A stretch of 40,538 bases of DNA from an uncultured Rhodospirillales bacterium (GTDB lineage: Bacteria > Pseudomonadota > Alphaproteobacteria > Azospirillales > Azospirillaceae), in assembly GCA_903920145.1 (NCBI GenBank), contig CAIXKV010000133.1, forward strand, positions 1 through 40,538, written 5' to 3'. The position numbers and the translations under genes are program-made. This document shows positions 424-40,538 of this stretch, piece after piece. The notes beneath the pieces were generated by a model. It had not been told where the DNA came from and did no database searches. It was given only the letters and a program-made list of their open reading frames with translations. The number at the start of each line of letters is the position of its first letter. Positions within the stretch are counted from its first letter, which is position 1.

Positions 424-461
424 TAATACCGGCGAGCCCTGATACTGACACATCGCCGGCA
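424..461 (+). repeat. Dispersed palindromic element, partial copy (first hairpin only)
   Basis: Matches the first module of the dispersed element: ATACCGGCGAGCCCTGATAC followed by the complementary ATCGCCGG arm. The remaining modules are missing and unrelated sequence follows. In the element's usual frame it reads VIPASPDTDTSP, the same peptide seen in full copies. Confidence 0.75.
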
Positions 462-604
462 AACTGCCAGCGCACCTCAAACGAATTTTCATTTCGGATT
501 ATTTTTATGCACAGATTGTAAAAGGAGGTGGCGTGTCCGGGACACGGTGTTTCGTGGTTGTTTGACGTTCCCGAGGAGCCGCCTTCGGTAGGAGGTTCCG
601 CCAC

Positions 605-664
605 GCGCTGGTGCTATCGATCGACAAAAAGAGCCAGATCCAGGCACTTGGCCAATCCCAGATA
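605..664 (+). pseudogene. Relic of an IS630-family transposase
   Basis: The frame starting at 605 reads ALVLSIDKKSQIQALGQSQ. This matches the conserved IS630 transposase block ALVL-x-VDEKSQIQALDRTQP, which contains a catalytic Asp. Only about 20 codons are recognisable; upstream and downstream sequence has no transposase-like reading frame. It is a decayed fragment of no expected function and marks this stretch as insertion debris. The identification rests on one motif. Confidence 0.55.
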
Positions 665-771
665 TCGGCATCGGCACAAACCGGAGGTGCGACCGGCAAA
701 ATGCGCCGATGAACCTGTGCGATCGGCCTTCAGGGAATTCGCCAACGGTATCGGTTGCTACCCGAACATCA

Positions 772-798
772 TGTCCGATAATAAAACATTATCGGACA
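772..798. other. Perfect inverted repeat resembling a serine-resolvase binding site
   Basis: TGTCCGATAAT (772-782) is followed by AAAAC and the exact complement ATTATCGGACA (788-798). The half-site agrees with the Tn3/gamma-delta resolvase consensus TGTCYRATAAT as I recall it, and the 27-bp total is close to a res subsite. No resolvase gene is in the window, so it may be left over from a transposon or plasmid res region. It could instead be an unrelated repressor operator. Confidence 0.4.
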
Positions 799-847
799 AA
801 AGAGAGACCGAAGAACTGCGGCGCTTAAGTGCGGCATAAGCCCAAAA

Positions 848-925
848 GGCGCCGGCTGGCCGGGGCGCTGGTGTGCGAAGCCAAGGACGCGGATGCGGTC
901 GCGCCGCATCTTGGGCGGCTTTTGC
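848..925 (+). repeat. Decayed copy of the dispersed palindromic element (middle modules)
   Basis: Contains GCGAAGCCAAGGACGCGGAT, one base different from the element's fourth module (GCGAAGCCAAGGGCGCGGAT), then GCGCCGC-rich sequence that no longer matches. The flanking hairpins are not recognisable. Together with 217-1128 it shows no convincing gene: this region holds an IS relic, a res-like palindrome and element fragments. Confidence 0.4.
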
Positions 926-1084
926 GCCAACATCAAAGCGCGCCGGTATGGTTAGGAGCCACCCCCTTATCGCCAACGGTCCGAAAATCCGGGTGTTTCA
1001 TGGCTTCTGGCCGTGTTATCATTGTAGATCGCGGTATGGCTTGTAGCAAAATATGGCTTGGATACTCTGTGTGCCTCGATGCGG

Positions 1085-3686: not shown

Positions 3687-3730
3687 ATGCCATCGGGCCT
3701 TGATGGAGCCTCATCAAGGCCCAATGGCAT
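3687..3730. repeat. Solo copy of the terminal hairpin of the dispersed element
   Basis: A 19-bp stem with one mismatch (3687-3705 against 3712-3730) and a 6-nt loop. The core CCATCGGGCCTTGATG...CATCAAGGCCC matches the last module of the dispersed palindromic element. It lies 180 bp after the membrane protein gene and might act as a 3' RNA stabiliser, but no U-tract follows. The rest of 3505-3948 is AT-rich with no gene I can support. Confidence 0.7.
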
Positions 3731-5978: not shown

Positions 5979-7826
5979 TTAGGTGTTTGAACTGGCCTTG
6001 GGGGTGATCGAAATCGGCTCATTTCGTGGCAATTTTCGTTCGACTTCGACAAAGTGGGGCTCCTGGTTGCTGCCGATATTGAAAACGAAACCCAATTTAT
6101 CCCACTTCTCGACCATTTCAACATTGCTGGCAAAGGAAATATAGTCCGCCGCGTTTTGGTCAAAACAGGTGCCGATCCATGGCACCTGAGGGCCGACATG
6201 GGGACCGGGCATGGCGTTGGCTGGCTCGGCTTTGGGCTCCAGGTAGACATATTCCGGTCGTTGGGCTGGCCACCACCAAATAAAACGGCCAAGAATTGTC
6301 TGAGCCGAGCATTGATTGAAATCCGCCTGCCACGGAACCGCCATATAACGCAGGATATCGCCGGGTTCCATGCCCAATTCAGGATCGAAACCAAGGCTCA
6401 ATGGGTCTGGAATGTTCTTCCTGACCTTAATTCTGAAGGGAGTCTCGGTATAGATAGCGGGATTACGGGAAATCCAAGTCATTTCGATCCCCGGAGAAAA
6501 AGCGCCGCCAACGCAATTTTCTAGCACAGCGCGGGTCAAACGCTCACCCTCAACAACCGGCTCGGCTCCTGGTCGGAAATAACCACCCGCCCATTGCAGA
6601 AGGAAAAAATACTGTGTATCGGTCAGGCGCTCGTATTTTGAGGTCGCTGCCGTTGTTACACCTGGGGTATTGGCTGCCAAAGAGTCATCACCAGCCAGAT
6701 ACGGCATCATGGTGGCGCCACTATTCGCGTTGATTAGAACATTTTCGGCGCCGGGAGGACGGATGAAGTCTAAGTAATACTGCCGAAAACCGTTAAAAGT
6801 TGGCTCAGGATTGCCCAACTTGTCAAAATCAAATTTATGCGGCTTGGGTGGAATCGCCGTCACCCAGGGATACCCGGCGGCACGTTCAAAGATTGGCTTA
6901 ATATCGGTCTCGAAATAAGGTTGGTATCCCTCAGCGCCCAATTTCCACAGACCATTGACGAAGATATCAGGTCGAATTTCCCGATATCGAACAAGAGCGT
7001 CAAAAATTGTATCATACAGCGTGACCATATTGGCAATTTGTGGCGCATAAGACGGTGGACCACACAGAACCCAGGCGGATTCAGCCTCAACCTCTAAATT
7101 TTGAGTGCCATCATTGATGACCAGTGTGGCCTTAACCGGCCCATCGGACGTATCATCCCACCAGTGATCGTTGTTGGCATAGGTTGGAAGTGACGGCGTC
7201 GTGTCCGTCGTGCCGGCATGTCCCAATCCACCCAGCACCAACAATCGGCCCTGAGCATCGGTGCGCAATTCGCCCAGTGTGTCGATGGTATCCGGAGACA
7301 GGGTTTCCGGCGGGAAACTGCCGCCAACATAGCCCGGCGGAATGGTATCACGCGAGAAATGAAACGCTTTTCCGTGCTGATTCTGCCCCTTGATGCTCCG
7401 GGGACCGGGATCGATGATCAGTTTGAGGCGCTCCTCCGTGGTCACCACCGACGCATTACGCAGACCTTGATTGGGTGGATAACCAGTTTCTCCACTCTTT
7501 GTTTGAAATTTATACCAACTTGCTTTCTTGTTGGCTAAATGAACATGCCATTGGATGGACTTGACCGCACCAACTCCTGCTGTTACTTCAGACCAGCTTT
7601 TACCGTCATCGGTGCTTTGCATCACACTGAAGCGGGCTGCTTGACGCCGAACCGCCCCTTTGGCGTCGCGAAAGTCCTTTTTCTCAAATGGCGTGCCATC
7701 GGGTAGAATCGGCAAGCCATTGCAGGTTTCTGGCCCGATATAGTATTCATCCAATGAATTGCCAACGCGGGCAATACCAATGGCCGGAAAAATAGAATAG
7801 ATTACTTTTTTCTCGGTATTAGACAT
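5979..7826 (-). CDS. LodA/GoxA-family CTQ-dependent amino-acid oxidase
   Basis: 615 residues, ATG preceded by AGGGGGA. The N-terminal IYSIFPAIGIARVGNSLDEYYIG block and the GQNQHGKAF and PPSYAP regions are characteristic of LodA-like proteins. These enzymes oxidatively deaminate lysine (LodA) or glycine (GoxA) and release H2O2. The quinone cofactor forms from a Cys and a Trp. C438 in CVGGAFSPGIE and W499 in VPWQADFNQC are the expected pair, 61 residues apart, close to the spacing in LodA. No signal peptide is visible, as in other family members that leave the cell by unusual routes. Substrate cannot be read from the sequence. It lies between a ferritin-like gene and a LodB-like gene on one strand with gaps of 21 and 11 bp. 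Confidence 0.9.
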   Translation of the reverse strand: MSNTEKKVIYSIFPAIGIARVGNSLDEYYIGPETCNGLPILPDGTPFEKKDFRDAKGAVRRQAARFSVMQSTDDGKSWSEVTAGVGAVKSIQWHVHLANKKASWYKFQTKSGETGYPPNQGLRNASVVTTEERLKLIIDPGPRSIKGQNQHGKAFHFSRDTIPPGYVGGSFPPETLSPDTIDTLGELRTDAQGRLLVLGGLGHAGTTDTTPSLPTYANNDHWWDDTSDGPVKATLVINDGTQNLEVEAESAWVLCGPPSYAPQIANMVTLYDTIFDALVRYREIRPDIFVNGLWKLGAEGYQPYFETDIKPIFERAAGYPWVTAIPPKPHKFDFDKLGNPEPTFNGFRQYYLDFIRPPGAENVLINANSGATMMPYLAGDDSLAANTPGVTTAATSKYERLTDTQYFFLLQWAGGYFRPGAEPVVEGERLTRAVLENCVGGAFSPGIEMTWISRNPAIYTETPFRIKVRKNIPDPLSLGFDPELGMEPGDILRYMAVPWQADFNQCSAQTILGRFIWWWPAQRPEYVYLEPKAEPANAMPGPHVGPQVPWIGTCFDQNAADYISFASNVEMVEKWDKLGFVFNIGSNQEPHFVEVERKLPRNEPISITPKASSNT

Positions 7827-7847
7827 GGAATCCCCCTACGGCATTGG

Positions 7848-9194
7848 TTATAGTCCAAGATGACTAACATCGATCAGAGCCTTGAGCCGGCGCAGTCCGA
7901 CGACCACGTCGTTGAGCCGCTCTTGAACCGTACTCGGTGCAGTTGGCGTTGCAGAGCCAACGACTACGGCAGGCGAAGCCGGAGCCGCAGATGGTGTCCG
8001 CGTGCCCCTCGGCAACGCAACCGTTAAACCCGCAGCGGCGGCAGAAGCGGCAGCCTTTTCAAGAGCGGTGATGGTCTGGTCAACAGAACTGTCGGGATCC
8101 CATAGCCACAATGGCGACGCGTTCGGTCCAACGTCACCTGATCCATCGGCTGTGACTGGCACCTGCATCAATACCCAAGCCAAATTCGGTAGGTATTCAT
8201 GCATCAAAGGTAATGTAAAACGAAAATACAATTGGCTTGAAAACCCCTCTTCTTTAAAAGATAGTTCTAATGTTCGCAGCATTAAACTATAGATTTTATT
8301 GAATGCGATCGCACAGTCAATTGCAACTTCATTAGTATAGTCTGATAGTTGAGCATTAGAAATAATTGGATAGGTACTTGGAAAGTCAGGAGTGTTAGCG
8401 ATTTTTTGAAATTTGATATAGTGAGACATTTCCAACGGCACGCCCATGATTGGGCCATAGGTTCCATCGGTACGATGACCATAATATTGATAGGCTCCAT
8501 AAGGTTGAACCGGAACTAACTGTCCAGATTCGGTCACGGCACCTTCGCCTTGTCGAACAATTTCATTGATCGCTTCTTTGGCTGTGACTTCCGATGTCAC
8601 TTGAATCGGCTTACCGCCGAATTTACCCAAATAGATATTGAGCAATTGATGCCGTCCCGGCTCTTGCCGAAACACCTTGTCATGGCCATAGGCTTTCACG
8701 CAGGCCTCGATGCCTAACCACAGGCCGGCGTAATATTGGCCGATGGTGTCAAAATTGGCTCCTTCAGGGGGAGCTTCAAAGGCGGCAGGCCGTTCAACGG
8801 CCATGAAGACATTACTAAAAACATCCTTCGATGCTTCAAAAAGGCCAATATAGGGTGTTGTATTGGGATTTGCACCGGGTAAGTAGGATGGATACTTTGG
8901 AACAACATCACCAGTGAACTGAGGAGTACCGCCAATTCCAACTAAAATATTTGCGGCTTGGTTGACATGGAACATCTCTTCCATGACTACACTACGCAAT
9001 ACTTGAAAGGCTTCGGAAGAACGATCGACAATTGAGTAAAGAGCGTTTAGATATAAAGGTATTGTTGTCATTTCGACATTAATTGCCCCTTGAGTAGCCG
9101 CTTGAAGCTCTTTAATACTGGTTAGTGATTTATATCGTTCGCTCAGGAGATATCGTTTATGGGACTCTCTGGTTGTCACCGATGTTGTGCTCAT
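7848..9194 (-). CDS. Ferritin-like domain protein of the VioB/RebD-associated type
   Basis: 448 residues, ATG preceded by AGGGGGC. The N-terminal half is a ferritin-like helical bundle: E41 in NVEMTTIPLYL, E73 and H76 in VVMEEMFHVNQAANIL, and a second pair of helices with GLWLGIEACV and PLEMSHYIKF. These are typical di-iron ligand patterns of the ferritin-like domain found in iminophenyl-pyruvate dimer synthases such as VioB and RebD. From about residue 390 the protein becomes Ala/Pro/Thr-rich (TPSAAPASP), then ends in a short helix. It is the first gene of the LodA/LodB operon. It may modify or condense the imine product of the oxidase, or handle H2O2, but this is inference. Confidence 0.8.
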   Translation of the reverse strand: MSTTSVTTRESHKRYLLSERYKSLTSIKELQAATQGAINVEMTTIPLYLNALYSIVDRSSEAFQVLRSVVMEEMFHVNQAANILVGIGGTPQFTGDVVPKYPSYLPGANPNTTPYIGLFEASKDVFSNVFMAVERPAAFEAPPEGANFDTIGQYYAGLWLGIEACVKAYGHDKVFRQEPGRHQLLNIYLGKFGGKPIQVTSEVTAKEAINEIVRQGEGAVTESGQLVPVQPYGAYQYYGHRTDGTYGPIMGVPLEMSHYIKFQKIANTPDFPSTYPIISNAQLSDYTNEVAIDCAIAFNKIYSLMLRTLELSFKEEGFSSQLYFRFTLPLMHEYLPNLAWVLMQVPVTADGSGDVGPNASPLWLWDPDSSVDQTITALEKAAASAAAAGLTVALPRGTRTPSAAPASPAVVVGSATPTAPSTVQERLNDVVVGLRRLKALIDVSHLGL

Positions 9195-9262: not shown

Positions 9263-9427
9263 ATGTGATCTTATAGCTATGATAGATGTAATGGCAAGTG
9301 GCAAAATTAAGGCACGATTTTTTTCAAAATAAACTCTGAATACGTTTTTATTATTCGCTACTTCCGCTTTTGAGAGAAACCGACAGAGGACTTCATGCCT
9401 GATGTCGTTACCCCCTGCTCTCATTCC

Positions 9428-9540
9428 GGCGAGCGGCAACGATGACTGATCGCCGGTCCTTGGGCGGTGATTGTGCCCACGCGGCATCTGAGGACCGACT
9501 TGATCTCTCAGCATCAAGACCCCATGATCTGATGCCACAG
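9428..9540 (+). repeat. Decayed copy of the dispersed palindromic element
   Basis: Keeps the overall module order in degraded form: GGCGAGC...TCGCCGG, then GGCATCTGAGG, then CTTGAT...ATCAAGACCCCATG. The first and last hairpins remain but the middle has diverged. It lies between the recombinase and the Lod operon; no gene is supported in 9263-9589. Confidence 0.45.
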
Positions 9541-10681: not shown

Positions 10682-10762
10682 AATACCATCGGGCCTTGAT
10701 TTGGCTGCGCGTTCGTGCGCGCGCAGCCCTAGGGCACGGATCCGCCCGCCCGGTCTCCGAAG
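10682..10762 (+). repeat. Rearranged copy of the dispersed palindromic element
   Basis: Begins with ATACCATCGGGCCTTGAT, the reverse orientation of the last module. It then has a strong 9-bp hairpin (10703-10711 against 10720-10728), followed by forward-orientation GGCACGGATCCGCCCGCCCG, the fourth module. The modules are therefore shuffled, which suggests recombination between copies. The remainder of 10610-10924 shows AT-rich sequence that may hold the kdp promoter, but no clear hexamers. Confidence 0.55.
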
Positions 10763-17130: not shown

Positions 17131-17196
17131 GTGGGCCGCGAGTGCGGCTCTACCCGCCCGGCATCTGAGGGCAGCCTTTGATGGATCAAAATCCCT
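17131..17196 (+). repeat. Truncated copy of the dispersed element between kdpD and kdpE
   Basis: GGGCCGCGAGTGCGGCTC, then CCCGCCCGGCATCTGAGGG and CAGCCTTTGATGGATCAAA match the second, fourth and fifth modules in forward order with deletions. It separates kdpD and kdpE by 154 bp, whereas these genes usually abut, so it probably inserted inside the operon. Confidence 0.65.
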
Positions 17197-17959: not shown

Positions 17960-18074
17960 TTCTATTGGCAAGGCTACGGTCACGTCCCGAGGACGCGACG
18001 ATATGTTATTGTTAGAACTCGCCGGCATCAAAGGGTCGAGTGGTCCTTTGCGGGGCAAACCAAGTTCTCATCCG

Positions 18075-18725: not shown

Positions 18726-19679
18726 TTAACGAATGGTTGTAGCATGGCGAGCGGCAACAGAACCCCAGGCTTTAAATCGGTCTTGGGCTGCTGAGGAAGG
18801 TCTGTTGTGGCGAGATCGACCATCAAAATAAGGTTTTGAGAGTTTTTCTTTACCTGCATCATCAATTAACCAACTTCTCCAGGCCGCTCCGATATCAAGA
18901 TATCGGTAGCCTTTGGCCCGACACCGATTAAGAAAGCGTTCGGTGATTGTGGTAAGGTCGGTGTCAGGATAACGGTCCAAGGCCCAAATCAGATCGGCAT
19001 CGCTGGGTTGCCAATCGGCGTCAGGAACTTTTGCTAAAACCGAAGAATTTATTAAAATTGAGGACGATGCGGCTTGGTGTGCGTCTTGTTGATGTTCAGG
19101 TTTGTTTGTTATGGAGTCATCGTTCGGACTCCCGGTGTTCGAGACAGAACAGGGACTGTTAACAACGGAACAGGTTAACGGAGGCGAAAGCGCAGTAGGT
19201 TCAGAAGAAATCGGCGATGAGGCTTCCTTCTGGGAAACCTCGGGGCGGGAGATCTCGGGAGGGACAACCACGCCATTAAGTCTTGATGTTGACTCCTCAA
19301 GGCTGCCCTGAGATGCCGGGTGGGCGTACTCGCGCCCTTGGCTTCGCGCATGTGGGCGAGCGGAGCCGCCATCACGGCCCAATGGCGATGTGTCAGTGTC
19401 AGGGCTCGCCGGTATCAGATGGTACAGACAGGCTCGACTGCCGCCGTCATCCCGGCGACGATGCGTTCGTTTGAGAAGCCCTAAGTCAACCAGTCGAGTA
19501 ATGACCTTATTAACCCAAGGGCGGCTGCGATTCAGCAATCGGGCTAACAAGCCTTGAGAGGGCCAACACGCACCGTTTTTATCGGCATGCAGCGCCAACA
19601 CCGCCAGCACCGCGATTTCGTCCGAACCGACCTCTCCACAGGTGAGCCAAGACTCATGCAATATGGCTATTCTTGCCAT
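18726..19679 (-). CDS. Winged-helix replication-type protein carrying an in-frame copy of the dispersed element
   Basis: 317 residues, ATG preceded by GAAGGAG. Residues 1-88 form a winged helix-turn-helix of the HTH_36/replication type (DEIAVLAVLALHADKNGACW, then LLARLLNRSRPWVNKVITRL). Residues about 90-138 are a translated copy of the dispersed element (IPASPDTDTSPLGRDGG, then RSQGREYAHPASQGSLEES). A Ser/Pro-rich linker follows. Residues 225-317 hold a DnaT-like pattern, FLNRCRAKGYRYLDIGAAWR, similar to primosome or replisome-organiser C-termini. It lies between repA and a second accessory gene. The reading frame is uninterrupted across the insert, which falls just after the wHTH domain where a linker would be tolerated. 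Function as a replication accessory protein is inferred. Confidence 0.75.
   Translation of the reverse strand: MARIAILHESWLTCGEVGSDEIAVLAVLALHADKNGACWPSQGLLARLLNRSRPWVNKVITRLVDLGLLKRTHRRRDDGGSRACLYHLIPASPDTDTSPLGRDGGSARPHARSQGREYAHPASQGSLEESTSRLNGVVVPPEISRPEVSQKEASSPISSEPTALSPPLTCSVVNSPCSVSNTGSPNDDSITNKPEHQQDAHQAASSSILINSSVLAKVPDADWQPSDADLIWALDRYPDTDLTTITERFLNRCRAKGYRYLDIGAAWRSWLIDDAGKEKLSKPYFDGRSRHNRPSSAAQDRFKAWGSVAARHATTIR
19272..19418 (-). repeat. Dispersed palindromic element, near-complete copy inside a coding region
   Basis: Reverse relative to the + strand but forward relative to its host gene. All five modules are present from GATACCGGCGAGCCCTGACA to the last hairpin near 19272-19302. 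Compared with the copy at 27790 it has lost exactly one codon and keeps the host frame. It encodes about 49 residues. Confidence 0.9.
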
Positions 19680-19926: not shown

Positions 19927-20949
19927 TCATGATGACTCATCCGAGTGCGGAACGGTGTGTGGAACCACGCGGTTGGTGCTGCGCAACCGCTGCAGTTGCC
20001 GCCCCCCCCCGTTTACAGCAATCAGTCGACGGGTTTCCATCGGTGGACTGTAGCGCAGGATCAGTCCCTCGTCGGTGATGTCCACATCGGCACCAACGTA
20101 GGCATCTTTAGCTTTTTCAATGCTACCGCGAAAAGTCTGGCGAAACTTAGACATAGGTTCTCGATTACCAAACCATGCCACCAGTTGCCGCCATGTAACC
20201 AGAACATCTTCGCCCTTTGGGATGCGTGGCAAGCGGTAGATCATGTATAATAAGGCATCGATGGCCATTGCGTTTGAACTGATCTTGCGTAAAGCTTCAT
20301 TAGGAACCGGGATGACATCGGCATCGGTAAAGCGTTTGAATGCCTTTTCCGACAGCTCAATTCCCAATGGGAATCGCACCTTGGCTAAATTCCCTTCGGC
20401 ATAATGAATCATATCGTCAGCGGCGAATACCACCGAATCAATTAAGGTATCTGACTTGAAGAACTCTAAATTTTCTTTCTTCAACATCATGCTGAATGTC
20501 GTGGTGGAAAGGCGTATCAACTGGCTTTTGGCCATGGCGACGTTGTCATGATGCGGGGGAATGCCAACGGAGGCCATCCAGTCGTCGATTCGTCCGATTT
20601 CCAGATGACGGGATCCTGTTTCCCGTGCTCGAGTGGTCATCCACAAGACCAAAAGCCGGGCTTTGGCTCCATAGGGCAATCCTGGGATGAATTCTCCATA
20701 GCCTGGAATGCGAATTAGGTTTGAGCTGATGGAAATCGAAAAATGAGAATCATCCCGACCAAAATCTCGAACCTCCAATTTTCGTAGAGGCAGGCCAGTC
20801 ATGGCAAAACTGCGGCTGATAAAACTGACGTCAAGCCGTTCTTCGCCTTCGGGGATTTCAGAAGGAATGACATCATCAAAGCGCAGCACGGCCTTGCGGG
20901 CTTCGTGACCCGAAATTGTCCGTATCGCCAGACTCGTCTCTTTCGACAT
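19927..20949 (-). CDS. repA: Plasmid replication initiator RepA
   Basis: 340 residues from the ATG at 20949. An open frame reaches a TTG at 21081, but that codon lies inside the first iteron, so the ATG is preferred. The protein resembles the RepA_C family of plasmid initiators: RIPGYGEFIPGLPYGAKARLLVLWM (residues about 103-128), a DWMASVGIP helix, EKAFKRF and ALLYMIYRLPRIPKGE. Such proteins bind iterons upstream of their gene and open the origin. Iterons are found immediately upstream. Residues about 265-315 (VTWRQLVAWFGNREPMSKFR) look like the second winged helix. The Ser/Arg-rich end is poorly conserved. Two accessory genes follow on the same strand. Confidence 0.82.
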   Translation of the reverse strand: MSKETSLAIRTISGHEARKAVLRFDDVIPSEIPEGEERLDVSFISRSFAMTGLPLRKLEVRDFGRDDSHFSISISSNLIRIPGYGEFIPGLPYGAKARLLVLWMTTRARETGSRHLEIGRIDDWMASVGIPPHHDNVAMAKSQLIRLSTTTFSMMLKKENLEFFKSDTLIDSVVFAADDMIHYAEGNLAKVRFPLGIELSEKAFKRFTDADVIPVPNEALRKISSNAMAIDALLYMIYRLPRIPKGEDVLVTWRQLVAWFGNREPMSKFRQTFRGSIEKAKDAYVGADVDITDEGLILRYSPPMETRRLIAVNGGGRQLQRLRSTNRVVPHTVPHSDESS

Positions 20950-20981
20950 GGCTGCGGGTATCCCTCTCTCTGGCCATCCCT

Positions 20982-21015
20982 CTTGATCGGGCCATCCCTC
21001 TTGATCGTGATCGAA
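20982..21015 (-). repeat. Tandem 18-bp duplication in the repA 5' region
   Basis: GGCCATCCCTCTTGATC occurs twice in direct repeat with a third degenerate unit next to it. If translated from the upstream TTG it gives DQEGWP repeated twice. Each unit contains GAGGGAT on the minus strand, a possible ribosome binding sequence, so the copy number could affect repA expression. Confidence 0.5.
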
Positions 21016-21073
21016 TGATAGCGTGATTGGCGTCGGACGGGGAAGGGCGTTACTTGGTGGTGGGACAGTTGGA

Positions 21074-21586
21074 TTACGCAACTCGCCGTCTAACTTACGT
21101 AACTCGCCGTTTAAGGCCGATCTTGGTCTTGGCGCCCTCAGTTTGGGCTGGAAGAAACCGGGTCTTTTTACGTAAGACGCCGTCTAACCGAGGCGAATCG
21201 GGGCAAAAAAGCATTTTTTACGAAGCAAGAGGGACTCGAGTCGAGATACAGCCTTTGGATGACTGTTGGTCGGGCGAAGGTTAAAGGGCGAATCCCATAA
21301 TGCAGAGGCGTGGTGTCGGCGTTAACCGGCGAGTCACGTAATATCGGCGAGTCCTGACACTGATACCGGCGAACCCTGATACTGACACATCGCCGGTATC
21401 GGGCCGCGACGGCGGCCCCGCGTCCTCGTGGACGCGAAGCCAAGGGCGCGGATGCGCCCGCCCGGCGTTGAGGGCGCCGCAGACGTGTCACCATCACGCT
21501 CGCCGATATTAAGGGGCCGCAATGGGGCCTTCCAGGGCATCACTGTTTTCGCAAGGGGGGATCACGATAAACGGCGAGTTACGTAA
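21074..21586. other. Candidate plasmid origin (oriV) with 20-bp iterons
   Basis: Five 20-bp repeats with consensus TTACGTAACTCGCCGTTTAA. Forward copies are at 21074-21093, 21095-21114 and 21168-21187; reverse copies at 21322-21341 and 21567-21586. A weaker reverse copy lies at 21281-21300. The first two are spaced 21 bp start to start, two helical turns, as is common for iterons. They lie directly upstream of repA. A full dispersed element separates the last two iterons. I saw no clear DnaA box. Confidence 0.75.
21346..21500 (+). repeat. Dispersed palindromic element, near-complete copy inside the iteron region
   Basis: Forward copy with modules one to four intact (GATACCGGCGA...ATCGCCGGTATC, GGGCCGCGACGGCGGCCC, GCGTCCTCGTGGACGC, GGGCGCGGATGCGCCC) and a degraded final hairpin. 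The first module is preceded by a second, partial 22-bp unit (CGGCGAGTCCTGACACTGAT), so this end varies by tandem units. It lies between two iterons of the putative origin. Confidence 0.9.
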
Positions 21587-24490: not shown

Positions 24491-24612
24491 TTAATCGAGA
24501 TCGGTTTGTAGATGTGGCTTCCTCAGCCCATGATAAACGCCCTTGGCCCACGCTTTGAGGTTGAAGAAAGTGACGTGGATCCGGAGCAGGACGATGTGGG
24601 CAGCCACCGCTA
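24491..24612 (-). pseudogene. C-terminal relic of an IS1595/ISXO2-type transposase
   Basis: Minus-strand reading gives RIHVTFFNLKAWAKGVYHGL then RKPHLQTDLD and a stop. This fits the C-terminal pattern of IS1595-type DDE transposases: VH-xx-(I/V)-x-N-x-K-x-W-x-x-G-x-x-H-x-(V)S-x-KHLQ-xx-L. The usual terminal EF-x-FRFNRR is lost and the upstream part is replaced by a copy of the dispersed element that continues the same frame. It is not functional. Confidence 0.5.
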
Positions 24613-24761
24613 TCCCATTGAGCTTTGACGAGAACTCATCAAAGCTCCCCTCAGACGCCGGGCGGGCGCATTTGCGCCCTTGGCTTCGCGCGCATGGGCG
24701 CGCGGGGCCGCCGTCGCGGCCCGATACCGGCGATGTGTCAGGATCAGGGCTCGCCGGTATT
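24612..24761 (-). repeat. Dispersed palindromic element, full copy
   Basis: Minus-strand copy from ATACCGGCGAGCCCTGATCC to the final hairpin near 24612-24650. All modules are present. Read in the usual frame it gives IPASPDPDTSPVSGRDGGPA and RSQGRKCARPASEGSFDE, and it runs on in frame into the IS1595-type transposase relic. Confidence 0.9.
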
Positions 24762-24820
24762 ACATCAAACAATAACATCCCGAAGCCAGGAATGCGCACA
24801 ACGAGAGCAGAAAAGAAGCT

Positions 24821-27564: not shown

Positions 27565-28410
27565 ATGTCCGCTACTCAAACTCTCGCTGCCCGCCAGCTC
27601 CCCGGCCAGAATTGCGGGGTGTGCGGCTATCGTACCTGCGATGCGCTGGCCGAACAGCTTGAGTCACGCCCTGATCTGATCAAGCGATGCATTAACCTCT
27701 CGGACAATCGTGTCGCGAACCCAACCACTCCCGTTAGCGAACCTCAAGCCTGGCGGCGGGAGGCCCCCAAGCCCGTATTCGGCGAGGCTCTGATACCGGC
27801 GAGCTCTGATACTGACACATTGCCGGTATCGGGCCGCGACGGCGGCCCGGCGTCCTCGTGGACGCGAAGCCAAGGGCGCGGATGCGCCCGCCCGGCGTCT
27901 GAGGGCACCCTTGATGAGTCACCATCAAGGCCCGATGGTATGAGCTGGCGGGACTCTCTTGGCCGCGAGTTCGACTTCTATCTTGAGCATTTCCCCGAAG
28001 ATCCCGGCCCGCGTGAGATCATTCTGCCTCACAATCCAATGTTAACCCGTGAGATGGAGATTAAGGTCGGAGACCTTATGATAGGTCGCCCGCTCGGCAT
28101 GTCGTGCGGATGCCCGATCACCCATTGCGGCGTCGCCGTTGAAGTCGATGCCCGCACAGGCGTTATTGTTTGGTGCGTCACGGGTCCACTCGCGCCTAGG
28201 GAGAAGGGATTCAAGGATATTGGCTACTATATTGCAGAGGGTTATGAGGGCTTGATCACCCAGACTCGAACCGAGATTAAAATCGGTATGCGGTATTTCT
28301 TCCAACCTCGACTCTGCATGCTTCAGTGGCGTCACAGTGGATTGGTTAATTATGTTAACCGAAGCGCCGATGGGCTTCAAGTTCGTCTCGAAGGATTGTG
28401 GATCGGCTGA
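27565..28410 (+). CDS. Fe-S protein with an in-frame copy of the dispersed element
   Basis: 281 residues from the ATG at 27565 (preceded by ACGGAG). Residues 13-45 form a PF04060-type Fe-S motif: C17, C20, C25 and C42 in QNCGVCGYRTCDALAEQL, as seen in RnfB and acetyl-CoA synthase small subunits. Residues 76-126 are the translated repeat element (LIPASSDTDTLPVSG, then ARPASEGTLDES). The C-terminal half has a second Cys set, C181, C183, C188 (MSCGCPITHCGV) and C204, in a domain I do not recognise. It closes the ABC-ATPase/GTPase/NifS operon and may be the scaffold or the client of that system. The insert lies between two likely domains and the frame is intact. Confidence 0.8.
   Translation: MSATQTLAARQLPGQNCGVCGYRTCDALAEQLESRPDLIKRCINLSDNRVANPTTPVSEPQAWRREAPKPVFGEALIPASSDTDTLPVSGRDGGPASSWTRSQGRGCARPASEGTLDESPSRPDGMSWRDSLGREFDFYLEHFPEDPGPREIILPHNPMLTREMEIKVGDLMIGRPLGMSCGCPITHCGVAVEVDARTGVIVWCVTGPLAPREKGFKDIGYYIAEGYEGLITQTRTEIKIGMRYFFQPRLCMLQWRHSGLVNYVNRSADGLQVRLEGLWIG
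27790..27942 (+). repeat. Dispersed palindromic element, complete reference copy inside a gene
   Basis: 153 bp, exactly 51 codons, in frame with the Fe-S protein. Five successive palindromes: GATACCGGCGA with TTGCCGGTATC; GGGCCGCGACGGCGGCCC; GCGTCCTCGTGGACGC; GGGCGCGGATGCGCCC; and CCTTGATGAGTCACCATCAA followed by GGCCCGATGGTAT. Most other copies can be aligned to this one. Confidence 0.95.
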
Positions 28411-28520
28411 TACTGGCGAGCCATCAATAATGATACCGGCGGGCCCTAACAATGATACCCCCGCCGGTATCGGGCTTCGACCGCACCCTCGGGCCGTGAC
28501 GGCGATCGGGTTGCGCCGTT
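28408..28520 (+). repeat. Variant copy of the dispersed element with expanded first module
   Basis: GATACTGGCGAGCC, GATACCGGCGGGCC and GATACCCCCGCCGGTATC follow one another, so the first unit is tandemly multiplied. Then GGGCTTCGACC...GGGCCGTGACGG. The later modules have decayed. It starts immediately at the stop codon of the Fe-S protein gene. Confidence 0.7.
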
Positions 28521-31536: not shown

Positions 31537-32675
31537 GGGCGCTTTTGGCCGGATTCTGCGGCGAATTCAAACGCATCTTGGGTGATGAGGGCGCCCGCAC
31601 CACCATGATCGCCGCAGTTTTGATCTACGCGGTCTTCTACCCACAACCCTATCTCAAGGAGGCGGTCCGCAAGGTTCCCGTGGTGGTGGTCGATCAGGAC
31701 CATAGCACGGCCAGCCGAGAGTTGATCCGACGCATCGATGCCAGCGACGGCGCCGCCGTGATTGCAGCGGCTCAGGATCTATCCACGGCCCGGAGTCACA
31801 TCCTTGCCGGTCGCGCCTTCGCGATCATCGTGATCCCGACCGATTTTGAACGAGACATCCTGGCCGGACGCCCGTCACCAATCGCAGCCTACGGAGACGC
31901 CGGATACTTCCTCGTCTACCGGGCTGCGGTGGGGGCGATCAGCACCGCCGCGCGATCGGCGGGAGCCGAGATCGCGATCCATCGCCTTAGCATCCAGCAG
32001 GGCGTGGACTCGGCAACGGCTCGGGCTATCGTCGATCCCATGCCGGTAACAATCGTCCCCCTGTTCAATCCCCAAGGCGGCTATGCCACCTATGTCGTCC
32101 CGACCGCATTTGTGCTCATTCTCCAGCAGACTCTTCTGATGGGCATCGGAATTTTGGGCCCCGCACGTCCCCAAACAGCAGGCCGACAAACGCTGGGCGG
32201 CTTGGCGACCGGGATGCTGGCGCGGGTTCTGGCGTTTGTTACCCTCTACATTCCCTTCGCCGTGCTTTATCTGGTGATCATGCCCCACCTCTATCACCTA
32301 CCGCGATTGGGTGCGGTCGGCGATCTCTTGATGGTCATGGCGCTTTTTCTCTTTGCCGTCAGTTGTCTTGGATTAACGCTTGCCGCCCTCATGCCCAGTG
32401 GCGAAAGCGTGATTCTGATGTTGGTTGTTCTGGGTTTGCCGCTTTTCTTCCTGTCCGGTGTCTCGTGGCCAAGCGAGAGCATGCCCAAGTTATTGTCGAT
32501 GCTCGCCCAGTGTATACCGGCCATTCCGGCCATGAATGCCACCGTTCGGATCGGACAAATGGGAGCCTCTTTGGCCGATGTCTCCCCAGAACTCCGCACA
32601 CTCGCCATCGACGCCGGGGCTTATGCCTTGGCCGCGCTCATTTGTCAAAGTGTGCGTGATACCATCGAGCCTTGA
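31533..32675 (+). CDS. ABC-2 type permease of an export system (second), C-terminus formed by a repeat element
   Basis: 380 residues from the ATG at 31533. Same architecture as the preceding permease: helix near residues 22-40, periplasmic domain (VPVVVVDQDHSTASRELIRR, then AFAIIVIPTDFERDILAG), then six helices including FLSGVSWPSESMPKLL. The last helix is cut short: the final residues DTIEP and the stop come from a reverse-orientation copy of the dispersed element starting at 32658. Family members usually have several more hydrophobic and basic residues here, so the tail was probably trimmed by the insertion. The loss is small and the protein may still work. Confidence 0.88.
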   Translation: MRALLAGFCGEFKRILGDEGARTTMIAAVLIYAVFYPQPYLKEAVRKVPVVVVDQDHSTASRELIRRIDASDGAAVIAAAQDLSTARSHILAGRAFAIIVIPTDFERDILAGRPSPIAAYGDAGYFLVYRAAVGAISTAARSAGAEIAIHRLSIQQGVDSATARAIVDPMPVTIVPLFNPQGGYATYVVPTAFVLILQQTLLMGIGILGPARPQTAGRQTLGGLATGMLARVLAFVTLYIPFAVLYLVIMPHLYHLPRLGAVGDLLMVMALFLFAVSCLGLTLAALMPSGESVILMLVVLGLPLFFLSGVSWPSESMPKLLSMLAQCIPAIPAMNATVRIGQMGASLADVSPELRTLAIDAGAYALAALICQSVRDTIEP

Positions 32676-32802
32676 TGGTGACTCATCAAGGCTGCCCTCA
32701 GACGCCGGGCGGGCGCATCCGCGCCCTTGGCTTCGCGTCCACGAGGCCGCCGTCGCGGCCCGAGGACCGGCGATGTGTCAGTATCAGGGCTCGCCGGTAT
32801 GA
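32658..32802 (-). repeat. Dispersed palindromic element, full reverse copy at a gene end
   Basis: Runs from GATACCATCGAGCCTTGATG to the first-module arm TCGCCGGTAT (32791-32800). All five modules can be recognised in reverse order. In this direction it brings an immediate stop codon for the preceding permease. Confidence 0.9.
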
Positions 32803-32819: not shown

Positions 32820-32928
32820 CCTGATACCGGGCAGCCTTGATGGCGACGCATCAAGGCTGCTCAGACGCCAAGCGGGCGCATCCGCGCCCTTGGCTTCGCG
32901 CCATGGGGCGCGCGGCGGCGGTCGCCGT
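32820..32928 (-). repeat. Second adjacent reverse copy of the dispersed element, lacking the first module
   Basis: Starts with GATACCGGGCAGCCTTGATG, has the CCTTGATGGCGACGCATCAAGG hairpin modules, GGGCGCATCCGCGCCC and GGCTTCGCGCC, then ends in GCGGCGGTCGCC. It lies 18 bp from the previous copy in the same orientation, so the pair forms a tandem array. Confidence 0.8.
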
Positions 32929-32933
32929 TGGTC

Positions 32934-33143
32934 TCAGTCTTTCCGGTCGAATCTAAGCTCTTCACAAGCGTGATGGTTGCCTTCTTCGCATTCCCGATGA
33001 AGGCGCAATATCCGGCAAGCATTGTGGTCGCCGCGCTCACAGTTCCAATGCAGCTCTCTCCCGTCCTGGGCGTTGGCGGGGGTCGATGCGATGGCCAGCA
33101 GAAACAGTGCCGACCCCATCAGAATGGCTTGCATGATCTTCAT
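32934..33143 (-). CDS. Small exported Cys/His-rich protein
   Basis: 69 residues from the ATG at 33143, preceded by the very strong AAGGAGGAG. Signal peptide (1-25, MKIMQAILMGSALFLLAIAS, cleavage after ANA). The mature 44 residues contain two related units, NCERGDHNACRILRLHRECE and EGNHHACEELRF. Four Cys and three His in a regular arrangement suggest disulfides or metal binding. I do not recognise a family. The neighbouring gene on the same strand is another small exported Cys-containing protein. Confidence 0.8.
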   Translation of the reverse strand: MKIMQAILMGSALFLLAIASTPANAQDGRELHWNCERGDHNACRILRLHRECEEGNHHACEELRFDRKD

Positions 33144-35875: not shown

Positions 35876-36304
35876 TAGATCCTCCTGGTACGACCGTCTA
35901 TGCTCAACGAAGAGTCATAGTTCAAGGTCGGTGGGATAGTTTCAGGATGAAATATGGAGTGTATTACCGAAATAAAATAGGAGTGGAAAATACTCATATT
36001 TTAGTATGAAAAATATGCTTAAAGAAATAATGTGAATCAATTTGAGTGATACAGGACATGAATGAGCATCATGCTGCATTTTAAATTATGCCATTAATTA
36101 GAGAGCTTTACCATTGCTTTGATGAAATATCTGCTTTGTATCGGACGCAGCCCCGATGCTACAGCGCTGACTACGGCTGTATGACGGTGCTCGCGGCATC
36201 CCTGCGTAGTTTCCGAGACTACCGGTTCTGAAGAATGACGCAGTAACGTTGCCCTGTTCGTGTCCGCACGACGTCAGAAAATCCGGTTGGTATCTAGATC
36301 AACC
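35876..36304. other. Intergenic region upstream of the glucan synthase, no gene seen
   Basis: A 429-bp gap between divergent genes. 35940-36130 is AT-rich (GAAATATGGAGTGTATTACC, AAAAATATGCTTAAAGAAAT) and probably contains promoters for both directions, but no hexamer pair is convincing. 36140-36300 is GC-rich with no recognised feature. Confidence 0.5.
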
Positions 36305-39300
36305 ATGGTCATTGATTTCCTGATAACACAGAAATATGGTGGGGTGATTAGCTTGAAATCGCAGCTTTTCCGGGCTTCTGTGCCCACCGATTCGACGGGT
36401 AATAAGAATATTGCCCCAGATCAAAATTTCATTGGGATCAGATTGCATGCCAAAACCCACGATCGAGGTGATGGTGGGTTTATCTCGTGGTCGGCCCCGC
36501 AAATTCTCGAAGAACCGATCCGTGCGGAACTCTTCAGCATCGAACGGCTTGAGCAGCATGCCGATAGCCTTGCGGCGGCCCAACACGCCACGACGAAGCC
36601 GACCACGGATCGACGGCTGGAAGCACGGCTTCGGGACAATGAGCGGGCTTTGCGTTCAGCCTATCATGCAACTGTTCTGGCCGTGCGCGAAGAGCGGCCC
36701 ATTTCTCCCGCAGCGGATTGGCTGGTCGATAATTTTCATGTGATCGAAGAACAGGTTCGGGAAATCCGAGTCGATTTCCCTCCGGGGTTCCATCGACAAT
36801 TGCCAAAACTGATTGAAGGACCACTTCAGGGATATCCGCGCGTCTTCGGATTGGCGTGGGCCTTCGTCGCTCATACCGACAGTCGTTTCGATACCCAAAT
36901 GCTGCGCCGCTTTGTGGTGGCTTATCAGCGGGTTCAGCCTTTGACCATCGGCGAATTGTGGGCGGTCGCGATCGCGCTGCGCGTCGTTTTGGTGGAGAAT
37001 TTGCGACGTTTGGCAGAAGGAATCGTCACACGCCAAACCGCGCGCGAAGGGGCGAACCTCCTGGCCGACCGGCTGCTGGAAGCCAACAGCCCAGAGGCAA
37101 CCGATAGAGCTCTGCGGGCCTTCGAGGCTCCCTTGCCAACGGCCTTCATGGTTCAACTGATCCAGCGGCTGCGAGACCAGGATCCGAAAGTCATGCCGGC
37201 GCTACTGTGGCTGGACGAACGCTTGGCGGCCCAGGGAACCACAGCTGACGACATCGTTCACGACGAGCAGCAGCGCCAGGGCGCCGTCAACGTGACGATC
37301 CGCAATATTATCACGAGCATGCGTTTAATGTCCGCGATCGACTGGCGAGAGTGGTTTGAAAGCGTCAGCCTCGTCGATTCCGGATTGCGTGCCGGAAGCG
37401 ATTTTGCCGCGCTCGATTTTCCAACACGGGATCTGTATCGGCGCGCGATCGAAGACTTGGCCCGAAGTTCCAGCCACTCAGAAATGGACATTACGCAGCT
37501 TGTGCTCCTGGCGGCCCAAGATGTCCGAGAGAAGGCGCATGGCGAAGGCAATATGGCTTCGGCTGCTCGGCAGGATCCCGGCTACTATCTGATCGGGAAA
37601 GGACGTCCGGCCTTCGAGACGGCGCTTGGGGTTCGGACGACACTCACGGGATGGCTTGTCCGCGCCAACACAGCGATCGGGATTTCCGGCTATCTTGGCA
37701 TCGTCACGCTTATTACGATCCTCATCGCCGTCTTGATCTTGAATTGGCTGTCTGTGCCGGGCGGGAGTTGGGGTTTTGGGATTTTTGCGCTGCTGGCGCT
37801 GATTCCAGCCTCGGATATCGCGGTGACGCTGGTGAATTGCGGTGCGACCAATCGCTTCGACGCCACCTCTCTCCCAGGTCTGAAGCTTGCCGACGGCGTG
37901 CCGTCCAGCCTCCGCACAATGATCGTGATCCCCACGCTCTTGACCTCCCGGAGCGCGGTAGCGGAGCAGGTCGAGCGGCTGGAAGTCCATCACCTTTCGA
38001 ATTCCGACGGTGACCTCTGCTTCGCTCTGCTCTCGGACTGGACCGATTCCGCAACCGAAACCGCGCCAGACGACGACGCACTGCTCGGCGTCGCTGTGGA
38101 CGGGATCGCCCGATTGAATCGGCGCTATGGACCGGCGCCGGGGGGCGAGCGGTTTCTCTTGCTCCATCGTCGCAGACTGTGGAACGAAGGCCAGAACAAG
38201 TGGATCGGATGGGAACGTAAGCGGGGCAAGCTGCACGAGTTCAATCGATTGCTACGGGGCGCGATCGACACCACATTTACCGCGACTAGCGACGGCGGCC
38301 CGCCGATTGTCCCGGATGGCGTCCGCTACGTGATCGTCCTGGATGCCGATACGCGCCTTCCTAGGGGCGCCGCGAAACGCCTAGTCGGGAAGATGGCTCA
38401 CCCGCTGAATCGTCCGACCCTTGATCCTGACGCTTGCCGGGTTATCGATGGGTACGCGGTGCTTCAGCCCCGAGTGACGCCGGCCTTGCCGAGTGGGCGG
38501 GATGGCTCGCTCTTTCAGCGGGTGTTTTCGGACACCAACGGCATGGATCCCTACGCTTGTGCGGTCTCGGATGTCTACCAGGATCTCTTCGGGGAGGGAT
38601 CGTATTGCGGCAAAGGCATTTATGACGTGGATGTCTTCGAGGCGGCGCTTGCCGGGCGGATTCCCGAGAACACCCTCCTCAGTCACGATCTTTTGGAGGG
38701 AATCTTCGCACGTGCCGGCCTCGTTTCGGATATCGAGGTTCTTGACGAGTTTCCGGCACGCTACGACGTCGCCATGGCGCGTCATCATCGCTGGGTGCGC
38801 GGCGACTGGCAATTGCTGCCATGGATTCTCGGCTTGGCGACGGGCACCCCCCGCCATCGGGTTATTCCCCTGGTTGGCCGGTGGAAAATGCTCGACAATC
38901 TCCGCCGATCCGTGTCGGCGCCGGCCTGCTTCGTGGCCTTGGTCGCCGGCTGGACCTTACCAATTGCCTCTGCGGAGCTTTGGACCGCGTTCATCCTAAC
39001 GACGATCGCGATCCCCGCTTTGCTCCCATTATTAGCGGGGATCTTGCCGCGACGGGTCGGGCTGGCGAATGGGTTTCATCTGCGCATGATCGGCGTCGAC
39101 CTCAGGCTCGCGCTCTCACAAATCCTGCTCCTCGTGACCTTTCTGGTGCATCAGGCCTGGACGACCTCCGATGCGATCCTACGAACGCTGTTCCGTCTGA
39201 CGGTGTCGCGCCGGAATCTCCTGGAATGGATGACCGCCGCTCAGGTCAAAGTCAGTCCGCAACTCGACCTGATGGGCTTCTACCGACAGATGTCCGGCGG

Positions 39301-40538
39301 TGTTGTTCTCGCCGTCGGAGCCGCAGCCGTAGTCGTTTGGGTCGCGCCAGGATCCTGGCCGATAGCCGCGCCGTTCGTGGGGCTTTGGCTGCTGTCGCCG
39401 ATGATCGGACGATGGGTCAGTCTGCCCGCACCCGTCTCCATTTTGCCCTTGGTCTCGGTCGAAGACGCCCGATCCTTGCGCCTGATCGCGCGGCGCACAT
39501 GGCGTTTCTTCGAAACCTTCGTTACAGTGGCCGAGCATGGGCTGCCACCTGACAATTTCCAGGAACACCCGGCTCCTGTGGTCGCCCATCGGACGTCGCC
39601 CACGAACCTGGGTCTTTATTTGCTGTCGGTGGTTGCGGCTCGGGATTTCGGCTGGCTCGGGCTGTTCGAGGCCGTGGAGCGGTTAGAAGCGACCCTCCAC
39701 ACCATGGGCAGGCTTGAGCGATTCCGTGGCCATTTCTACAACTGGTACGACACGCAGGATCTTCGTCCGCTCGACCCCAAATACATTTCCTCGGTTGATA
39801 GCGGGAATCTTGCTGGACATCTTATCGTCCTTGGCAATGCCTGTCGAGATCTGAGCGTGGTTCCGATTATCGGATTGCCGGAATTGGCCGGAATCGGCGA
39901 TGTTCTGGACCTCACGCGCGAGGCGAAGGAGGCGATGGGCAATGGTCCCATGGCCGGGACGCGACAGCGACTAGGGTCCGTCCTCCACACGATCGGGGTC
40001 TCGCTCTCTTCGATGACCCCGACGACTCCGGTCTTGCTGGCTGAACGGTTGATGACCCTGGCGTGGCACGCTGACACCGTCATCGATCTGGCACGAACAC
40101 TGGCCGAAGAAAGCGGAGGCAACGCCTTCGCCGAAGCCGCCGCTGCCGAAGCCCTAGCTTGGGCGGGAAGCGTCGCCGCTACCCTTCGCAGTCATCAACG
40201 CGATTTGGCACACTTGATGCCGTGGGCAAGCCTCTTGGCTCGCAATGAAGATACGAGCCTCGAACCTGCGTTGGTCTCCCTATTGGGGACCATGCCGTCT
40301 CTGGCCGAGTTACCCGACTTTTGCGGGGCGGCTATTGCCATCTTGACGGGTCGGCGAACCGAGCGGGCCACGCAATCCGATTCCGGCGACAAGGCCCTCA
40401 TACCGGCGAGCTATAACGATGACACACTGCCGGTATCGGGCCGCGACGACGGCCCCGCGCGCCCATGCGCGCGAAGCCAAGGGCGCGGATGCGCCCGCCC
40501 GGCGTCTGAGGGCAGCCTTGATGAGTCAACATCAAGGC
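36305..40538 (+). CDS. ndvB: Cyclic beta-1,2-glucan synthase NdvB/ChvB-like, N-terminal half (partial, runs off the window)
   Basis: Open from an ATG at 36305 to the right edge with no stop: 1411 codons seen, about half the usual 2800. A GTG at 36344 is another possible start. The N-terminal region is clearly NdvB-like: RAELFSIERLEQHADSLAAA (from about residue 74), ISPAADWLVDNFHVIEEQVR, then GYPRVFGLAWAFVAHTDSRF. Membrane helices near 457-495. Glycosyltransferase family 84 domain with DxD D680/D682 (VIVLDADTRLP), GKGIYDVDVFE, LSHDLLEGIFARAG and RHHRWVRGDWQLLPWI. More helices at about 872-960 and 997-1045. It makes periplasmic cyclic glucan for osmotic adaptation. From residue 1366 an in-frame dispersed element begins (LIPASYNDDTLPVSGRDD). 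The downstream glycosidase domain lies outside the window. Confidence 0.92.
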   Translation, partial: MVIDFLITQKYGGVISLKSQLFRASVPTDSTGNKNIAPDQNFIGIRLHAKTHDRGDGGFISWSAPQILEEPIRAELFSIERLEQHADSLAAAQHATTKPTTDRRLEARLRDNERALRSAYHATVLAVREERPISPAADWLVDNFHVIEEQVREIRVDFPPGFHRQLPKLIEGPLQGYPRVFGLAWAFVAHTDSRFDTQMLRRFVVAYQRVQPLTIGELWAVAIALRVVLVENLRRLAEGIVTRQTAREGANLLADRLLEANSPEATDRALRAFEAPLPTAFMVQLIQRLRDQDPKVMPALLWLDERLAAQGTTADDIVHDEQQRQGAVNVTIRNIITSMRLMSAIDWREWFESVSLVDSGLRAGSDFAALDFPTRDLYRRAIEDLARSSSHSEMDITQLVLLAAQDVREKAHGEGNMASAARQDPGYYLIGKGRPAFETALGVRTTLTGWLVRANTAIGISGYLGIVTLITILIAVLILNWLSVPGGSWGFGIFALLALIPASDIAVTLVNCGATNRFDATSLPGLKLADGVPSSLRTMIVIPTLLTSRSAVAEQVERLEVHHLSNSDGDLCFALLSDWTDSATETAPDDDALLGVAVDGIARLNRRYGPAPGGERFLLLHRRRLWNEGQNKWIGWERKRGKLHEFNRLLRGAIDTTFTATSDGGPPIVPDGVRYVIVLDADTRLPRGAAKRLVGKMAHPLNRPTLDPDACRVIDGYAVLQPRVTPALPSGRDGSLFQRVFSDTNGMDPYACAVSDVYQDLFGEGSYCGKGIYDVDVFEAALAGRIPENTLLSHDLLEGIFARAGLVSDIEVLDEFPARYDVAMARHHRWVRGDWQLLPWILGLATGTPRHRVIPLVGRWKMLDNLRRSVSAPACFVALVAGWTLPIASAELWTAFILTTIAIPALLPLLAGILPRRVGLANGFHLRMIGVDLRLALSQILLLVTFLVHQAWTTSDAILRTLFRLTVSRRNLLEWMTAAQVKVSPQLDLMGFYRQMSGGVVLAVGAAAVVVWVAPGSWPIAAPFVGLWLLSPMIGRWVSLPAPVSILPLVSVEDARSLRLIARRTWRFFETFVTVAEHGLPPDNFQEHPAPVVAHRTSPTNLGLYLLSVVAARDFGWLGLFEAVERLEATLHTMGRLERFRGHFYNWYDTQDLRPLDPKYISSVDSGNLAGHLIVLGNACRDLSVVPIIGLPELAGIGDVLDLTREAKEAMGNGPMAGTRQRLGSVLHTIGVSLSSMTPTTPVLLAERLMTLAWHADTVIDLARTLAEESGGNAFAEAAAAEALAWAGSVAATLRSHQRDLAHLMPWASLLARNEDTSLEPALVSLLGTMPSLAELPDFCGAAIAILTGRRTERATQSDSGDKALIPASYNDDTLPVSGRDDGPARPCARSQGRGCARPASEGSLDESTSR
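40400..40538 (+). repeat. Dispersed palindromic element inside ndvB, cut by the window edge
   Basis: Forward copy from ATACCGGCGAGCTATAACG through GGGCCGCGACGACGGCCC, GCGCGCCCATGCGCGCG, GGGCGCGGATGCGCCC and the start of the last hairpin (CCTTGATGAGTCAACATCAA). Reads LIPASYNDDTLPVSGRDD, then CARPASEGSLDEST in the ndvB frame, the same frame used in the two other host genes. Confidence 0.92.

Follow-up and report, generated by a model that had tools for sequence, protein, structure and literature searches.

A probable non-autonomous, MITE-like palindromic element of Azospirillaceae, mainly intergenic and occasionally in frame within proteins

Rickettsia palindromic elements (RPEs) are palindromic repeats of ~100-150 bp, present in tens to hundreds of copies and found in frame in unrelated conserved genes, where an insertion adds a peptide of approximately 50 amino acids; nearly half of the RPE copies of R. 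conorii lie inside open reading frames (ORFs) (PMC10969869). Bacterial MITEs are short and transposase-free, are flanked by target-site duplications (TSDs) in the form of short direct repeats, and are mostly intergenic with occasional in-frame fusions (PMC5896051, PMC10969869). CGTC REPs, which predominate in Alphaproteobacteria and include RPE-4 and RPE-6, have no known transposase (PMC3733652). Here, we describe a palindromic repeat that is very probably non-autonomous, MITE-like mobile DNA of Azospirillaceae, and whose copies inside genes would be tolerated in-frame survivors. Literature and sequence-string searches found no published description of the element, and neither the element nor its core matched an Rfam covariance model; the initial suggestion that this mobile palindromic family is undescribed thus appears to be correct.

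The window, that is the whole stretch of DNA analysed (40,538 bp), is an entire contig (C133) of a 4.26-Mb genome in 269 contigs. The initial annotation had reported at least nine clear copies and several remnants of the repeat; a profile grown from the copy at 27790-27942 upheld the family, with seven good copies and ~8 remnants. The copies, and the gene that holds the copy used for the profile, are as follows:

27565-28410, plus strand: host gene, Fe-S protein (PF04060) with an in-frame insert in a linker (Pfam, homologue G009:C95)
27791-27941, plus strand: good copy inside the Fe-S gene (profile search)
19273-19417, minus strand: copy in the wHTH (HTH_36) gene at 18726-19679 (minus strand), element frame +2
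21361-21509, plus strand: full copy outside called genes, its right end rearranged (profile search)
24612-24762, minus strand: full copy outside called genes (profile search)
32659-32802, minus strand: full copy downstream of an ABC-2 permease gene (profile search)
32824-32961, minus strand: near-full copy in tandem with 32659-32802 (profile search, adjacency list)
40398-40538, plus strand: copy toward the C-terminus of ORF 36239-40537, cut by the contig end, frame +2
424-949, plus strand: remnant, with the left hairpin (424-461) and the core and right end (849-949) ~390 bp apart
3688-3720, minus strand: solo right-end hairpin (profile search)
9421-9528, plus strand: degraded copy (adjacency list)
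10688-10762, plus strand: degraded core (profile search)
17135-17196, plus strand: degraded core/right part (profile search)
17968-18030, minus strand: degraded left part (profile search)
28431-28494, plus strand: left part of a degraded copy just past the Fe-S gene (profile search)

Many other contigs of the assembly likewise end inside a copy, indicating that the assembly is broken by the repeat. The window contig also carries a LodA-type (CTQ-dependent oxidase) gene (5979-7826, minus strand) and a plasmid RepA_C-like gene (19927-21081, minus strand), and may therefore be plasmid-borne.

Genomic context was assessed in 1.29 Mb of contig stretches, 30% of the genome, where the profile search returned 403 matches in total, 133 of them full; extrapolation from randomly chosen contigs gives an estimate of ~400 full copies genome-wide. 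Across the whole genome, the exact core pattern was matched 378 times and a reversed-pattern control 0 times, confirming that the repeat exceeds chance. Nearest-neighbour identity between copies has a median of 97.6%, and a first look yielded 863 candidates in the source genome versus ~80 or fewer in congeners; these data indicate that the element has spread recently.

The mobile unit, TACC...GGTA, is usually 147 bp long (the modelled consensus is 151 bp) and is flanked by a 3-bp direct repeat, TNA, as a TSD. TNA was present on both sides of 67 of 74 intact copies, and its middle base was equal in 50 of these 67 (31% expected, p=3e-13); no flanking identity longer than 3 bp was found in the TSD analysis of the copies. 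The 147-bp unit and the 3-bp duplication together make a net insertion of 150 bp, or 50 codons, and these values, with TGA as the duplication, replace the 153 bp and 51 codons first assigned to the copy in the Fe-S gene. The five successive hairpins described at the outset were recovered as paired arms common to the copies, with an RNA fold that none of 200 shuffles matched in stability (z = -4.8) and a DNA fold of the opposite strand at z = -4.3. The parts of the copy in the Fe-S gene, all on the plus strand, are:

27791-27793, plus strand: left TSD, TGA (TSD analysis; TNA family statistic)
27794-27940, plus strand: mobile element, 147 bp, TACC...GGTA (profile and TSD analysis)
27792-27830, plus strand: hairpin 1, left terminal, arms 27792-27800 and 27822-27830 (sequence, RNA fold)
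27830-27849, plus strand: hairpin 2 (arm listing, covariation)
27850-27865, plus strand: hairpin 3 (read from sequence, covariation)
27867-27904, plus strand: core, AAGCCAAG-(hairpin 4, 27874-27889)-CGCCCGGCGTCTGAGG, common across Alphaproteobacteria
27909-27930, plus strand: hairpin 5, right terminal (arm listing, RNA fold)
27941-27943, plus strand: right TSD, TGA (TSD analysis; TNA family statistic)

At the two ends, TACC and GGTA are invariant, and the ~35-bp ends are loosely alike, each with its own hairpin; their inverted identity is only partial, and they do not appear to be simple TIRs. The stem of hairpin 1 is re-paired with different sequences in other copies and genera, some variants have left ends of quite different, yet still self-complementary, sequence, and a 164-165-bp variant has an additional small hairpin in the middle. 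The Niveispirillum elements are built alike but differ in their stems (TACCAAT...ATTGGTA, 157-159 bp), and TNA duplications were present at 6 of 8 of them. In its short length (147 bp), its lack of transposase coding, its many copies (~400) and its 3-bp TNA duplication, which the Niveispirillum elements have as well, the element is like a MITE. Some copies are nested in or adjacent to one another; adjacent copies show 3-bp overlaps in the adjacency list, and no nested insertion in the form of complementary half-copies passed a strict rule. We propose that insertion takes place at TNA with duplication of this 3-bp target, that the element's ends serve as imperfect, hairpin-bearing terminal repeats starting TACC, and that it has spread mainly into intergenic DNA and older copies of itself, whereas the structured inner core would be far older than the expansion in the source genome.

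The core pattern, AAGCCAAG-hairpin-CGCCCGGCGnYTGAGGG, was found in 15 of 385 Alphaproteobacteria sampled, a patchy distribution, and in no genome of other Pseudomonadota within a 398-genome draw. With a non-G first base, it occurs in Erythrobacter, Aurantiacibacter, Sphingomonas, Rhizorhabdus, Plastoroseomonas, Roseomonas and Rhodospirillales MAGs; the ORF context of these class-wide cores was uninformative because of long spurious ORFs in GC-rich DNA. In hairpins 2-4, 99.8% of cells are paired, with double changes at 11 of 24 pairs, and this covariation was matched by 0 of 500 shuffles. A 25-sequence multi-order alignment of the core gave 99.0% paired and a covariation score of 0.346 versus 0.080, and the unpaired blocks AAGCCAAG, GGAY, CGCCCGGCG and YTGAGGG are invariant across orders. 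In Sphingomonadales and Acetobacteraceae, a multi-hairpin motif that shares the core lies at the ends of genes (L216-L282, e.g. L228, L253, L224), with invariant AAGCCAAG, CGCCCGGCG and YTGAGGG blocks and without an Rfam entry; many copies have CCGAGC..GCGAGG as hairpin 3, and tandem G-A pairs would arise from this sequence in RNA. Outside the sampled Azospirillaceae, a Proteobacteria MAG contig (L258) also has a complete element, in which the arms on either side of the core are TACCAACGG-like.

The conserved hairpin core could be a functional structured RNA, either an sRNA or a 3'-end/terminator-like structure, whose copies were amplified and whose insertion into genes is incidental. Besides the covariation and the invariant unpaired blocks, the intergenic copies of Niveispirillum and Sphingomonadales that consist of the core alone speak for such a role, as does an excess of intergenic copies between convergent neighbours (24, versus 12 between divergent ones). 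We consider this reading possible but unlikely; the core has no Rfam match, its patchy distribution is unlike that of a housekeeping RNA, and the copies show no preferred orientation with respect to their neighbouring genes (19 versus 17). Moreover, arm-to-arm repair can preserve the complementarity of a palindrome and so mimic covariation, which means that stem covariation alone is no proof of RNA function; however, such repair accounts less readily for the invariant unpaired blocks. A related and decidedly speculative idea is that the five-hairpin core might be an undescribed structured RNA (or ssDNA) and itself the mobile principle; its fold would be recognised by the moving machinery, TNA-targeting ends would have captured the core in Azospirillaceae, and in the source genome it would have come to generate new protein linker segments.

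Under the preferred reading, that of a MITE-like element, a transposase supplied in trans would move the copies. A duplication of 3 bp is more in keeping with a transposase that makes staggered cuts (DDE-type) than with a Y1/RAYT enzyme, and a 3-bp TNA target duplication is typical of IS5-family insertion sequences of the IS1031/ISL2 type. The transposase families examined were DDE_Tnp_1 (PF01609), DUF4096 (PF13340) and Y1 (PF01797). Element termini were not found around the five DDE_Tnp_1 loci of the genome, DUF4096 (IS5-type) had no match in the genome, and no element flanked either of the two Y1 genes, one RAYT-like (L215, G000:C169) and one IS200-like (L214, G000:C266). An autonomous partner was also sought as paired ends 0.2-4 kb apart, and the few candidates, which included C48:19087-20411 and 424-949 of the window, held ordinary genes or none and were rejected. 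Most likely, an enzyme cutting at TNA moves the element in trans.

Movement by a REP-associated tyrosine transposase via single-stranded hairpins, as for a REP/RAYT-type element (BIME or REPIN), would suit the hairpin-based architecture and the presence of one RAYT-like and one IS200-like gene in the genome, and CGTC REPs likewise lack a known transposase (PMC3733652). Nevertheless, it appears highly unlikely in view of the 3-bp TNA duplication, the size of ~150 bp rather than units of 20-40 bp, the absence of a CGTC-hairpin-CCA unit from the element consensus, and the lack of copies around both genes, including the RAYT-like gene beside which a REP palindrome of 20-40 bp would be expected.

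The initial annotation had described the repeat as inserting in frame into unrelated proteins; that this is its typical behaviour was not supported. With home-made gene calls, ~9 of 96 classifiable full copies (~9%) lie inside genes, against a coding share of 79% in the sampled sequence (p~6e-48), and the element is therefore mainly intergenic; in-gene insertions have probably been purged for the most part by purifying selection. The copies that do lie in genes show a strong frame preference, as anticipated, because 7 of 8 full in-gene copies use element frame +2 (p=4e-4), the exception being one full copy in a TPR protein that uses +0; when remnants are included, the figure is 11 of 14. The stop-free forward frame first noted is indeed open (+2, 91 of the 133 full copies), but it is not unique, since +0 (85), -0 (81) and -1 (71) are open as well. 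With four of six frames about equally open, openness alone cannot explain the +2 bias; frame -0 is almost as open and requires an identical target phase, and the advantage of +2 over the -0 peptide is left unexplained by openness.

Among the peptides of the four open frames, that of +2 is the most polar and most disorder-prone (GRAVY -0.98, net charge -1, 59% P/G/S/T/N/D), which fits a tolerance of inserts. Its divergence by codon position is flat (0.104, 0.087, 0.088), indicating that selection does not maintain the peptide across the family; it is a disordered by-product without codon-position selection. Most of the 157-159-bp Niveispirillum elements would shift the reading frame. Taken together, the intergenic excess, the lack of codon-level selection and these sister elements argue that in-gene copies are tolerated survivors. 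A forward insertion at the codon boundary nTN|Ann would add a net 150 bp, or 50 stop-free codons, and a host protein with such a polar, disordered 50-residue insert could survive as a longer protein; the frame bias suggests that in-gene inserts are translated rather than removed.

Comparison with repeat-free homologues, which exist for the GT41/TPR, DUF4175 and Fe-S hosts, found the insert peptide in no homologue examined. In the GT41/TPR protein (C78), the insert occupies residues 609-658, and in a 68% identical homologue of the congener G001 the two halves are contiguous, as confirmed at the DNA level; eight further homologues also have no insert. The site lies just before the FGSxN motif, at a place tolerant of insertion, where eukaryotic O-GlcNAc transferases have an intervening domain of their own. 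The DUF4175 protein (C137) has exactly 50 extra residues, and these are missing at that point from its homologues in G001 and G003 and from three further ones. In the window, the Fe-S identity first proposed for the host was borne out by a PF04060 domain that precedes the insert, and the homologue in G009 (C95) is uninterrupted, although the empty-site junction is not base-exact because the site falls in a variable linker. Further hosts are an NRPS with two copies, the N-terminus of GlgB, a methyltransferase-like protein, the wHTH protein, whose use of the same frame was confirmed, and ORF 36239-40537 (1433 aa), for which frame +2 was likewise confirmed, whereas its designation as NdvB is a likeness by eye to which Pfam adds no match. 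The insert peptide is similar between different hosts, an example being IPASPDTDTSPVSGR. Since repeat-free homologues exist and the in-gene frame preference is strong, neither an ancestral peptide shared by distant homologues nor a lack of frame preference was observed.

A candidate insert in an asparaginase (C113:5444) was rejected, as the protein is only ~9 aa longer than its homologues and the match could have arisen by chance or be a copy in decay; only the looser figure of 11 of 14 includes it. Two genes, among them a DegT-type aminotransferase gene, may have their start codons within or right beside element ends (GGTATGA / ATGA; loci L063:10631-12010 and L060:13820-15565, both minus strand). 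Two adjacent genes, L054:3984-7430 and 7325-8920 (both minus strand), which by eye resemble T6SS TssM-like and OmpA/TssL-like genes, each hold a decayed element remnant in frame.

Intein- or intron-like behaviour, with inserts spliced from RNA or protein to leave the host proteins unchanged, might be suggested by the fact that conserved enzymes hold exact and structured insertions, for example within the catalytic domain of GT41; it is extremely improbable, however, because the inserts keep exactly 50 codons open and prefer one frame, neither of which removal would require, and because the insert is too short for an intein or known ribozyme intron and has no Rfam intron match. An origin of the segment as an old peptide module, or of its hairpins by chance in GC-rich coding sequence, can practically be dismissed despite the open frame and the similar peptides, given its absence from every homologue examined (which refutes a module in the GT41 and DUF4175 hosts), the TSDs, the mostly intergenic copies and the excess of exact cores over the control.

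With empty sites as support, the MITE-like element would thus show independently that selfish DNA can lengthen proteins, here in a free-living bacterial family rather than the intracellular, reduced-genome lineage of the RPEs. The question raised by RPEs, whether inserts are tolerated, translated or useful, becomes testable in a culturable family, and the covarying core, which recurs across Alphaproteobacteria and has no Rfam entry, offers RNA-seq and genetics a concrete target.

Compared with known systems, the element resembles MITEs such as QMITE1/QMITE2 of Coxiella, ERIC and Correia/NEMIS in its short length, lack of a transposase, short direct-repeat TSD, mostly intergenic location, occasional in-frame fusions and predicted stable stem-loop transcripts, and its loosely alike ends recall their terminal repeats; however, no parental IS was found among the families examined, its ends are hairpins, and its inner core is conserved across orders with compensatory changes. 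With REP/BIME sequences, CGTC- or GTAG-tagged, it shares palindromes, intergenic location, core-only copies at gene ends and, for the CGTC type, the lack of a dedicated transposase, but it differs as a five-hairpin composite of ~150 bp with a 3-bp TSD and no RAYT association. The likeness to IS1031/ISL2-type insertion sequences concerns the TNA target site only, as the source genome has no IS5-type transposase with element termini. Like RPEs, it is a palindromic repeat in the ~100-150-bp class found in frame in unrelated genes; in contrast to them, it lives in free-living bacteria, and its in-gene share is ~9% versus nearly half in R. conorii. We know of no TNA duplication and no five-hairpin covarying core in RPEs, both of which are present here, and the two were likened by description rather than by RPE consensus sequence. 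The analogy with RPEs drawn in the initial annotation therefore stands for mechanism and not for membership, and the Azospirillaceae element appears to work as RPEs do, with a far lower share of its copies in ORFs.
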